A DNA stretch of 23,666 nucleotides, from positions 1 through 23,666 of IMG/VR virus record IMGVR_UViG_3300044858_002743; one strand, given 5' to 3'. The stretch comes from a virus. Below, piece by piece: positions 1 to 23,575 of the stretch. Position numbers and translations under genes: made by a program. The notes under the pieces are model-generated. The model saw only the letters and a program-made list of their open reading frames with translations. It was not told the origin of the DNA and searched no databases. Positions within the stretch are counted from its first letter, which is position 1. Every line of letters begins with the position of its first letter.

Positions 1-312
1 CGTATGCTTCGTAAGCAGTTGTAATTGCTCCTTCACGAGTGTCTGTGTAGGCCTTAGCGTCTACCTCTGCTTGGTCAGCGTATGCTTCGTAAGCAGTTGT
101 AATTGCTCCTTCACGAGTGTCTGTGTAAGCCTTAGCGTCTACCTCTGCTTGGTCAGCGTATGCTTCGTAAGCAGTTGTGATTGCTCCTTCACGAGTGTCT
201 GTGTAGGCCTTAGCATCTACCTCTGCTTGGTCAGCGTATGCCTCGTAAGCAGTTGTGATTGCTGTCTCACGGCCATCCGTGTAAGCATTTGCTGATGTTA
301 CTGCATCTGCTT
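1..312. repeat. 78-bp tandem repeat inside tail-fibre gene
   Basis: Units begin at 1, 79, 157 and 235. The first three are nearly identical (a few synonymous changes) and the fourth is degenerate at its far end. Period 78 = 26 codons, so the frame is kept. The repeat may continue left of the window. High DNA identity suggests recent unit duplication or gene conversion. Confidence 0.92.
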
Positions 313-595
313 CGGCTGTGTCTGCGTAATCTTGTGCGTCTGAAAGTGCTGCTGCTGCTGCACCATTTGAATCATACCAACCGTCAACAACTGTGCGGTC
401 AATAGAAAGTTGGCTATTGACATCGACTGAAAGTCCAGATGCAACCGAATCTATAAGATTTTCGCCACCAACTAAATCCAAAATATACTGATCTGAATTT
501 ACCTCTGTAAGTATATTTCGGCCATTAACCGTAGCTGTTGAGCCTTCAACAACCAGACCATGTTTAATTCTAAAGTTTTTATTTACTGTTGCCAT
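1..595 (-). CDS. tail-fibre protein, 3' end cut by window edge
   Basis: Open frame from ATG at 595 running off the left edge with no stop. The start has a good ribosome site (AAAAGGAG about 8 nt upstream). The N-terminus (MATVNKNFRIKHGLVVEG) resembles phage fibre/baseplate proteins. About 85 residues later it enters an Ala-rich, helix-prone region with the 26-residue repeat unit ADQAEVDAKAYTDTREGA plus ITTAYEAY, seen four times before the edge. Such repeats are typical of trimeric coiled-coil fibre shafts. It is the last visible gene of the minus-strand virion block. Receptor binding is inferred; the C-terminal tip is not in the window. Confidence 0.8.
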   Translation of the reverse strand, partial: MATVNKNFRIKHGLVVEGSTATVNGRNILTEVNSDQYILDLVGGENLIDSVASGLSVDVNSQLSIDRTVVDGWYDSNGAAAAALSDAQDYADTAEADAVTSANAYTDGRETAITTAYEAYADQAEVDAKAYTDTREGAITTAYEAYADQAEVDAKAYTDTREGAITTAYEAYADQAEVDAKAYTDTREGAITTAYEAY

Positions 596-4149: not shown

Positions 4150-6084
4150 CTATGCGCTAATATCTACCAATTCACAGTTTCCATCAGAGCTACATGCAAG
4201 TGTTGCATTTACAGAAGTTCCATCTTCTGTCTCATAAAAAGATAAATCTTCCCATCGGATTTCTTTAGGCATCTTTGCGACAAGGGATTCGTACTCTTCT
4301 TTAGTTACTTCTTGGTAAGGGGCTTGCTTATAGGTGTGATCTGAATGAGGTAAGAATGAGATTCCTGAAACTTCATCAAAGTGTTTGTAAACCCAAGCGC
4401 CAACTTCCATCCACTCGTCTTCTTTTACAGAAACTGTAATAGAGGGCTTGTGTTCACACCATGCACGTTGATATACCAACCACGTGTTTAAATGATCTAA
4501 TGCAGTCAAATCACTTCTAACAATTGCACCTTCTGGAGCCTTTACTGGAAATGAAAAAACATAAGTTTCATTTGGTTTCATTACATCATCTTCCACTGGA
4601 ATTCCAACTTCTTTTAAGAACACAGAGATAGGGTCTCCTTTAGAGCCACGGACTGTGCGAATGTAATATGGTGAATGCCAAGGGTGCATACCTGAAGATA
4701 CCCCTACAAGCTGTGAAACAGTTCCAGAAGGCTTTACACATGTAATAGCCGCAGACTCTGGAATACCTATCTTGGCAGCCTCATGCATATTTGTTTCTCT
4801 AGCTTTTTCACGCATAGACATTAGAAAAGACTCTAATGCAATAATGTCTTCTTTGCCAGACATAAACTTATGACCAAACTGTCCAGTAAGGGAAACACCT
4901 AAAAGTCTTTCCTCTTCCGTATTGTCTTTCCAGATTTTTCTAAGATACTTAAAATCTGTTAATGTTGCTTGCCAGGTTCCAAGAATTGTTGCAAGCTCAA
5001 CCTTGCGCTCAATATCTTTCTTTGTATCGCTTTCACGTAATACGACTTCTGAAAGATTACAAAATTGATAGGGACGTAAAATAATTTCTGAGCAAGGGTT
5101 TGTTCCATAATGAATTTCTGGATCTCTTCGTCCATACTTTGAGGCTTGCTTTTGAGCTGCTGCAACATTGTATATTCCACGCTCTCCTGATTTTGAATCA
5201 TAAAGTGATTTCCATTCTGAAATAAATTGCTCCATGTCTGGCTTACGAGAATAAGCTACAGAGTTATTTGAAAGAGCACGTTGAGTATTGTTTTCCCACC
5301 AATTTCCCGATTTAGCGGCGGCCATTTCAATATCGTTAATATTCGACAAGGAAATCATAGCTGAGCGGCGAACTCCGCCCACAACAACAACTTCACCAAT
5401 CTTGCACATAATGTCATGTGCCTCAATTGGCTTTAAGTTTCGTCCTGCTGCTGATTTAAACTTTGCAATTGTGAAATCAAAAAGATTAACAAGAGGCTGA
5501 GGACCTGAAGATCTCCCACCCATTGTTTTTAAACGTGCACCTGCTGGTCGAACTTTTGAAACATCAATTGCTGGGATTTGTCCTGACCAAAGCAAGGCAA
5601 GCAGCTCACGGTAGGCTTTTGCCCAACCTTGCTTTGAATCTTCTACTGTAATTACGGTTGTAGATTTTTCAAATGTTTCTGGGACGGCGGGAAGCTTATT
5701 AACATACTTATATTCAACAGAAAACCCAACACCTGTTCCACACATAAGAATATACATGGTTTCATCAAAAGATCTTGGGGAATCTACTGGGACAAATGAA
5801 CAATTGTATCCTGCTACATTATCTCTCTCTAGTGCCGCTCCTGAAGTCATTACGGAGCGCATAGAGGGCATGACGTTTCTTTTAAATACACCATCTTTTA
5901 ATTCCGCTACAAGCTTTTCAGTTGGAATGTAATTATGATTTTCTTTTAGGTGGTTTAGCATAAAATCAAAATATCTATCTACCGTCTCACCCCACGTTTC
6001 ACGACGGTTTTCTTCTGGAATCCATCTAGCGTAACGTGATAACGCAATAAAATTTTCGTACGGGTTTGCAATAGTATTTGACAT
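4150..6084 (-). CDS. nrdJ: class II (adenosylcobalamin) ribonucleotide reductase (644 aa)
   Basis: Reduces ribonucleotides to deoxyribonucleotides for phage DNA synthesis; class II enzymes use adenosylcobalamin to generate the thiyl radical and need no oxygen or NrdB. Visible landmarks: NCSF Cys95, NPCSEI with radical Cys331 and Glu333, FCNLSE Cys342, and VKPSGT at 450-455. Cys331 and Cys342 are 11 apart, as are C408 and C419 of Lactobacillus RTPR. A C-terminal Cys pair (C631 and C637) can re-reduce the active site. The protein is shorter than the ~740-aa RTPR, so an allosteric or cobalamin-side insertion may be reduced. ATG at 6084 has AAAAGG upstream. No partner thioredoxin gene is nearby. 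Confidence 0.93.
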   Translation of the reverse strand: MSNTIANPYENFIALSRYARWIPEENRRETWGETVDRYFDFMLNHLKENHNYIPTEKLVAELKDGVFKRNVMPSMRSVMTSGAALERDNVAGYNCSFVPVDSPRSFDETMYILMCGTGVGFSVEYKYVNKLPAVPETFEKSTTVITVEDSKQGWAKAYRELLALLWSGQIPAIDVSKVRPAGARLKTMGGRSSGPQPLVNLFDFTIAKFKSAAGRNLKPIEAHDIMCKIGEVVVVGGVRRSAMISLSNINDIEMAAAKSGNWWENNTQRALSNNSVAYSRKPDMEQFISEWKSLYDSKSGERGIYNVAAAQKQASKYGRRDPEIHYGTNPCSEIILRPYQFCNLSEVVLRESDTKKDIERKVELATILGTWQATLTDFKYLRKIWKDNTEEERLLGVSLTGQFGHKFMSGKEDIIALESFLMSMREKARETNMHEAAKIGIPESAAITCVKPSGTVSQLVGVSSGMHPWHSPYYIRTVRGSKGDPISVFLKEVGIPVEDDVMKPNETYVFSFPVKAPEGAIVRSDLTALDHLNTWLVYQRAWCEHKPSITVSVKEDEWMEVGAWVYKHFDEVSGISFLPHSDHTYKQAPYQEVTKEEYESLVAKMPKEIRWEDLSFYETEDGTSVNATLACSSDGNCELVDISA

Positions 6085-21012: not shown

Positions 21013-21039
21013 TATCACATATCAACGAAAGGATATAAA

Positions 21040-23216: not shown

Positions 23217-23249
23217 TGGCCGTTATGGACAATTCGGACATAACGGCCA
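23217..23249 (+). repeat. 11-bp hairpin after the P14 operon
   Basis: Perfect inverted repeat TGGCCGTTATG (23217-23227) / CATAACGGCCA (23239-23249), 11-nt loop carrying most of CAATTCGGACATA, a 13-mer also found at 17821. No U-run, so either operator or weak terminator. Confidence 0.6.
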
Positions 23250-23312
23250 TTAAGCTAAGGGACACGGGCAAAAATATTGCTTTACGACCCTATTTACAAA
23301 ACCCCGAAATTC
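23250..23312 (+). repeat. intergenic hairpin element H (diverged)
   Basis: TAAGCTAAGGGACACGGG, TTACG at 23282, CCCCGAAATTC from 23302. Core spacing is kept, DnaA boxes and the CRP-type site are absent. Confidence 0.5.
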
Positions 23313-23315
23313 GGA

Positions 23316-23321
23316 TATAAT
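23316..23321 (+). promoter_or_regulatory. -10 box for the Lsr2-like gene
   Basis: Perfect TATAAT at 23316-23321 in an AT-rich run, 34 bp before ATG 23355. No WTGTCA element 17 bp upstream, so this promoter is of a different class. Confidence 0.5.
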
Positions 23322-23354
23322 ATATATAACAAAGATCTAGAAAGGATCAAACTA

Positions 23355-23504
23355 ATGTCAACACCAACAACAACTCGTGAATACCTAAAGGCCCAGGGAA
23401 TCGCTGTAGGCAAGCGTGGTCGCTTTTCAGCTGCAGCTCTAGGCGTTATCAACAAGGCAGCACAAGAAGGCGTAGTCTTCACAGACAAGAAGAACGTCAA
23501 GTAA
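23355..23504 (+). CDS. Lsr2-like mini DNA-binding protein (49 aa)
   Basis: ATG 23355 after GAAAGGA; a longer in-frame start at 23277 precedes the promoter and is rejected. REYLKAQGIAVGKRGRFSAA then ALGVINKA closely follows the C-terminal DNA-binding domain of Lsr2 (pattern R.WA...G..V..RGR....V...Y), with RGR as the AT-hook-like minor-groove motif. The Lsr2 oligomerisation domain is missing. It could compete with host Lsr2-type silencers at AT-rich DNA. This is a motif match; binding is not shown. Confidence 0.65.
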   Translation: MSTPTTTREYLKAQGIAVGKRGRFSAAALGVINKAAQEGVVFTDKKNVK

Positions 23505-23518
23505 CAAACTAAGTGTGG

Positions 23519-23560
23519 GGTTCCTCCTCTCTGGTGGGAAACTGGGAAAGGGGAGGAACC
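23519..23560 (+). terminator. hairpin after the Lsr2-like gene
   Basis: GGTTCCTCC (23519-23527) / GGAGGAACC (23552-23560), 24-nt loop. Weak U-run downstream (CGCTTCATTT); terminator possible. Confidence 0.4.
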
Positions 23561-23575
23561 TCGCTTCATTTACAA

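Follow-up and report, generated by a model that had tools for sequence, protein, structure and literature searches.

A lone Lsr2-type DNA-binding domain encoded by a phage

The window, by which we mean the whole stretch of 23,666 nucleotides of viral DNA that was analysed, contains a short gene at 23355-23504 (+) whose 49-residue product is, by profile and motif, an Lsr2-type DNA-binding domain, scoring below the curated Pfam cut-off. This mini-protein is not Lsr2 proper, because the dimerisation domain is missing. The ORF starts with ATG and is preceded by a good ribosome-binding site; an alternative upstream TTG would give a product of 75 aa. The product, MSTPTTTREYLKAQGIAVGKRGRFSAAALGVINKAAQEGVVFTDKKNVK, carries the RGR motif at residues 21-23 and has a net charge of +6. 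The GC content is 38% for the window and 49% for the gene itself.

A first scan of IMG/VR found 84 relatives; a second, made with the alignment, found 230, and 80 were kept from each. All translated relatives were free-standing proteins of about 45-52 aa. Among 33 members, T6, R8, E9, Y10, L11, K12, Q14, G15, I16, V18, G19, R21, G22, R23, F24, S25, A27, A28, A35, G39, and F42 were invariant, so that the RGR minor-groove motif was present in all 33 sequences, with a spacing that is ungapped relative to Lsr2 of M. tuberculosis. The pN/pS ratio of the gene was about 0.23 (62 distinct DNA cores, pairs with pS below 0.5). Since the gene is conserved across relatives and has this low ratio, it is a genuine and constrained coding sequence. 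A decayed or truncated host lsr2 was ruled out by the conservation over many loci and by the anatomy of the gene.

Scanning prokaryote genome contigs for the family gave no match, and neither did searching 396 genomes from one actinobacterial phylum with a profile, a search that had no positive control. With both searches empty, the family seems restricted to phages. The mini-protein itself matched nothing in PADLOC or NCBIfam.

Assignment by profile, motif and predicted fold

The sequence-only reading of this DNA had described a 49-residue protein with the Lsr2 C-terminal pattern and RGR but without the dimerisation half, and both parts of this description were confirmed. The pattern R-x-[WY]-x(4)-G-x-x-V-x-x-RGR was found without gaps, as in the C-terminal domain of actinobacterial Lsr2 (PDB 2KNG, 6QKP), and phrog_6269, annotated as Lsr2-like DNA bridging protein, matched the mini-protein with E=1.5e-7 over profile positions 5-46 of 188. 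All 33 members matched this profile, down to E 1.9e-9. PF11774, the Lsr2 dimerisation domain, was found neither in the window nor in 12 related contigs (80-120 kb); these contigs may be partial records, so its absence there is not proof.

The only Pfam match was PF23359 (Lsr2_DNA-bd), with E=0.011 and 15.5 bits against a cut-off of 26.9. The same profile was matched by 33 of the 33 members at E<=1 (best 6.6e-4) and once in each of the 12 related contigs, in none of them above the cut-off. When compared by hhalign with canonical Lsr2 C-terminal domains, the family gave probabilities of 85-92% and scores of 27.5-30.7; the best of 300 column shuffles reached 16.4 against the observed 27.5, and none of the 300 was as good. 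A resemblance to LysR proteins, seen as weak PDB matches by sequence and by profile and placed first in the profile search, was taken as chance similarity around RGRF.

On the likeness of the predicted fold to the Lsr2 C-terminal domain, two models differed. The AlphaFold2 model of the mini-protein (model 1, mean pLDDT 78) has two helices flanking the RGR loop, the same order of helix, loop, and helix as in the Lsr2 domain. Foldseek against 350,542 PDB chains placed the Lsr2 C-terminal domains 2kng and 6qkp at ranks 1 and 2, with E values of 2-4, and among the chains re-aligned with VIA-align these two were the only ones with Z>=2 (Z 2.6). Model 2, that of a relative, retrieved neither structure. 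Given the E values of 2-4 and the failure of model 2, the predicted fold is no more than suggestive of the Lsr2 domain. The assignment is based on sequence-profile evidence for that reason. Unlike actinobacterial Lsr2, the mini-protein lacks the N-terminal dimerisation domain, has instead a C-terminal G-x-x-F extension, and scores below the Pfam cut-off.

Counterparts in Stanwilliamsviridae

The closest relatives were the N-terminal domains of tandem proteins of Streptomyces phages in Stanwilliamsviridae. In Tomas gp7, Moab gp219, and Wakanda gp234, all of phrog_6269, this domain is homologous to nearly the whole mini-protein (hhalign probability 99%). The tandem proteins have 169-194 aa and add to it a canonical Lsr2-type domain, which in the Tomas protein matches PF23359 with E=5.6e-14, and a Cys-containing tail, whereas the mini-protein corresponds to the first domain only. 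Judged by these profiles, the mini-protein belongs on the N-domain side of phrog_6269, without the second domain and the tail. With these N-terminal domains as its nearest relatives, the gene was rejected as a simple truncation of host Lsr2. The Stanwilliamsviridae proteins annotated as Lsr2-like DNA bridging proteins, among them those of Tomas and Moab, thus seem to be tandem DNA-binding domains without the Lsr2 dimerisation domain, and the name may mislead for that reason.

The position of the gene was compared using a ribonucleotide reductase gene at 4150-6084 (-) as an anchor, the product of which is closest to Stanwilliamsviridae enzymes, with 65% identity. In the window, the reductase gene and the mini-gene are 17.3 kb apart and divergent. 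In the Streptomyces phage Coruscant, the tandem gene is located at 4.6 kb on the minus strand and the reductase gene at 21.6 kb on the plus strand, that is, with an equal 17-kb spacing and likewise in divergent orientation. In our reading, the mini-gene corresponds by position to the tandem gene and is either reduced to its first domain or ancestral to it. The Tomas counterpart is located in the direct terminal repeats and is present at both genome ends, and the same location has been stated for cluster BE (PMC8612146). This location fits early entry into the cell.

Other Lsr2-like sequences were also seen. Proteins of 92 aa encoded next to the tandem gene in Wakanda (gp233, L168 478-756) and BillNye (L175 490-768) contain two RGR motifs of the Lsr2-like kind themselves, and no dimerisation half is apparent in them. 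Rhodococcus phage Peregrin encodes, near a WhiB gene, a hypothetical protein of 123 aa (gp202, L172 892-1263) with a related N-terminal domain in which GSKGKFS replaces RGRFS. In Tomas gp7 (L081:6148-6285), the second of the two Lsr2-type domains weakly matched PDB 8qsy/9gs0, a capsid stabilization protein (E=0.17, residues 101-129), which might be a case of an Lsr2-type domain in a virion protein.

Gene anatomy and promoter classes

The mini-gene has its own promoter, composed of TTTACA (23293-23298), a 17-bp spacer, and TATAAT (23316-23321), on the plus strand and kept in nearly all relatives. A different promoter class recurs in the window: AATGTCAG was found seven times, always on the plus strand (13721, 14802, 16638, 16898, 17852, 19110, and 23575), and each copy stands 8-13 bases 5' of a TATAAT-like box, which is often preceded by TG at a distance of one base. 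By its sequence, this combination is a recurrent phage promoter class used by the neighbours. The canonical promoter of the mini-gene contains no AATGTCAG, in agreement with the earlier claim that its promoter class is unlike that of its neighbours.

Several inverted repeats surround the gene. In the promoter spacer there is a short one, CCGAAATTCGG (23304-23314, not assigned to a strand), which might be an operator. Distant relatives have a clearer dyad over the -35 element, TATTTAC-N6-GTAAATA or TATTG...CAATA, which is imperfect in the window; as the promoter dyad is clear in distant members only, we do not claim an operator here. Another inverted repeat, GGCCGTTATG...CATAACGGCC at 23218-23248 (+), lies between the preceding gene and the mini-gene and is possibly functional.

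In the 5'UTR, a hairpin at 23334-23348 (+), GATCT-AGAAA-GGATC, encloses the ribosome-binding site. Its stem covaries among relatives, appearing as GATC/GATC, CATC/GATG, TTATC/GATAA, or TGTC/GACA. In the alignment 91% of cells were paired and the covariation score was 0.632, compared with a mean of 0.219 for shuffles (none of 500 as high) and a maximum of 0.134 on sliding. Hairpins of this kind are not unique to the mini-gene. A similar one, ATATC-AACGAAAG-GATAT at 21019-21036 (+), precedes a gene whose product starts with MPNWVYNGL, and it was also seen in the relatives L001, L003, L006, L030, L057, and L063.

Just 3' of the mini-gene, at 23515-23564 (+), there is a strong terminator-like hairpin (-32.5 kcal/mol, z -4.8) with a weak T run, and relatives carry a G+C-rich inverted repeat of other sequence at this position. 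Because the gene has its own promoter and terminator-like hairpin while the neighbours use another promoter class, it is probably a transcription unit of its own. The strong promoter, the structured ribosome-binding site, and the terminator-like hairpin suggest that the mini-protein is probably expressed early and at a high level. At the other end of the window, positions 2-595 (-) encode a protein that resembles a tail fibre and in which AKAYTDTREGAITTAYEAYADQAEVD is repeated in tandem.

Host and host silencer

The phage most likely infects actinobacteria, because its reductase is closest to those of Stanwilliamsviridae and because WhiB is carried by 13 of 15 related contigs. A search for the host with the tRNA-Asp gene gave a best match of 88% and identified no host. 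In a sample of 197 genomes from one actinobacterial phylum, that of G016 (L186), PF11774 was found in 19, all of at least 3.1 Mb, and PF23359 in 22. With PF11774 in so few genomes and in none below 3.1 Mb, the host of this phage may be without Lsr2. By the same size distribution, small-genome actinobacteria may be without it.

Possible function

An isolated Lsr2-type domain of this kind likely binds DNA. In Lsr2, insertion of the RGR loop into the minor groove of AT-rich DNA is established (structural work cited in PMC10066036 and PMC7002338). The loop of the mini-protein would probably insert in the same way, as a monomer; lacking the oligomerisation half, the protein would neither bridge DNA nor polymerise. 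It would thereby occupy AT-rich sites on the phage DNA and also on host DNA. Such occupation would most likely serve to block oligomeric, Lsr2-like nucleoid proteins of the host, which then could not nucleate silencing filaments on the phage DNA. We give a probability of about 40% to this explanation as a whole, in which a lone binder of AT-rich DNA is made early and abundantly and blocks the nucleation of host silencing. Of its parts, the homology, the free-standing state, the conservation, and the gene anatomy were observed, and from these the DNA binding, the early and abundant expression, and the competition with a host silencer are inferred.

Phage antagonists of silencers are known for H-NS, namely T7 5.5, T4 Arn, and perhaps MotB, the last of which is a nonspecific DNA binder that changes H-NS binding (PMC7827196). 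By analogy, antagonism of host Lsr2 by the mini-protein, as suggested in the sequence-only reading, is plausible, so that this reading is supported in part. Against antagonism, weaker binding is expected of a single domain than of an oligomer. Nor was the loss of host lsr2 made good by full-length lsr2 genes of phages (PMC10066036), and the possible lack of Lsr2 in the host also counts against it. We tentatively propose, at less than even odds, that there is a widespread class of phage counter-silencers that consist of the DNA-binding domain of the silencer alone and flood AT-rich DNA with non-oligomerising copies, so that host silencing filaments could not nucleate.

The mini-protein might instead be a transcriptional regulator of the phage's own, which as a monomer binds AT-rich sites and tunes or represses phage promoters, possibly including its own, independently of any host silencer. 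We regard this as a real possibility, if one that falls short of even odds. Tight control is suggested by the dyads that relatives carry around the promoter and by the covarying hairpin that encloses the ribosome-binding site; the distinct AATGTCAG promoter class of the neighbours could be its target, and the Lsr2 N-terminal domain occurred in only few of the sampled genomes (19/197). However, the dyad over the mini-gene's promoter is imperfect in the window, and Lsr2-type domains read AT-richness more than one defined sequence. A precedent for such a regulator is RokLS20 of plasmid pLS20, a silencer homologue consisting of the DNA-binding domain only, which represses comK (PMC7074111).

Less probable are roles in which the domain works as a structural component. 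A protein that is small, basic, and, by its gene anatomy, probably well expressed could coat AT-rich phage DNA and condense it in a nucleoid or virion, and the weak match of a capsid stabilization protein to the Lsr2-type motif points in this direction; this is improbable, because the Tomas counterpart stands among small genes of the terminal repeats annotated without function and not among annotated virion genes, and a lone domain would presumably be unable to bridge DNA. Slightly more doubtful still is a two-part silencer in which the mini-protein pairs with a separate oligomerisation protein of phage or host, or with a host nucleoid protein that has diverged: Wakanda and BillNye do have two adjacent Lsr2-like genes, but PF11774 was not found in the 12 related contigs. 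That the resemblance to Lsr2 is accidental and the role unrelated to DNA is very unlikely; the single-sequence Pfam and PDB matches are indeed below significance and the PDB profile search was weak with LysR proteins first, but the profile comparison was far above shuffles, and in Streptomyces phages members of the same family are joined to a canonical Lsr2 DNA-binding domain.

The distinction between silencer antagonism and a phage regulator has wider consequences. Full-length and oligomerisation-half Lsr2 are known in actinophages with debated roles, and a conserved family of the DNA-binding half, present in many actinophage contigs from environmental samples, offers the complementary test. 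If the mini-protein derepresses Lsr2 targets, occupation of DNA would be the way in which phages overcome xenogeneic silencing; if it does not, they would have adapted the Lsr2-type domain as their own regulator.

Comparison with other silencer-derived proteins

In the open-licence literature, phage Lsr2 was found as full-length proteins, as the oligomerisation half only, and fused to Ku; a free-standing family of the DNA-binding domain was not found there, and priority is not certain because only open-licence papers were covered. The truncated Lsr2 of phage clusters BD, BK, EE, and EH (PMC10066036) is likewise half of Lsr2, is shorter than 80 residues, occurs in lytic phages, and has been proposed to interfere with host Lsr2 as a dominant negative. 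Those proteins, however, keep the oligomerisation half and the mini-protein keeps the DNA-binding half, making it their mirror image. RokLS20 resembles the mini-protein as a silencer homologue on a mobile element reduced to its DNA-binding domain, but it belongs to the Rok family and to Bacillus, and is a known comK repressor (PMC7074111). Ku-Lsr2 of cluster J mycobacteriophages also contains the Lsr2 DNA-binding domain without the Lsr2 N-terminal domain (PMC8612146); there the domain is fused to Ku, whereas the mini-protein is free-standing.
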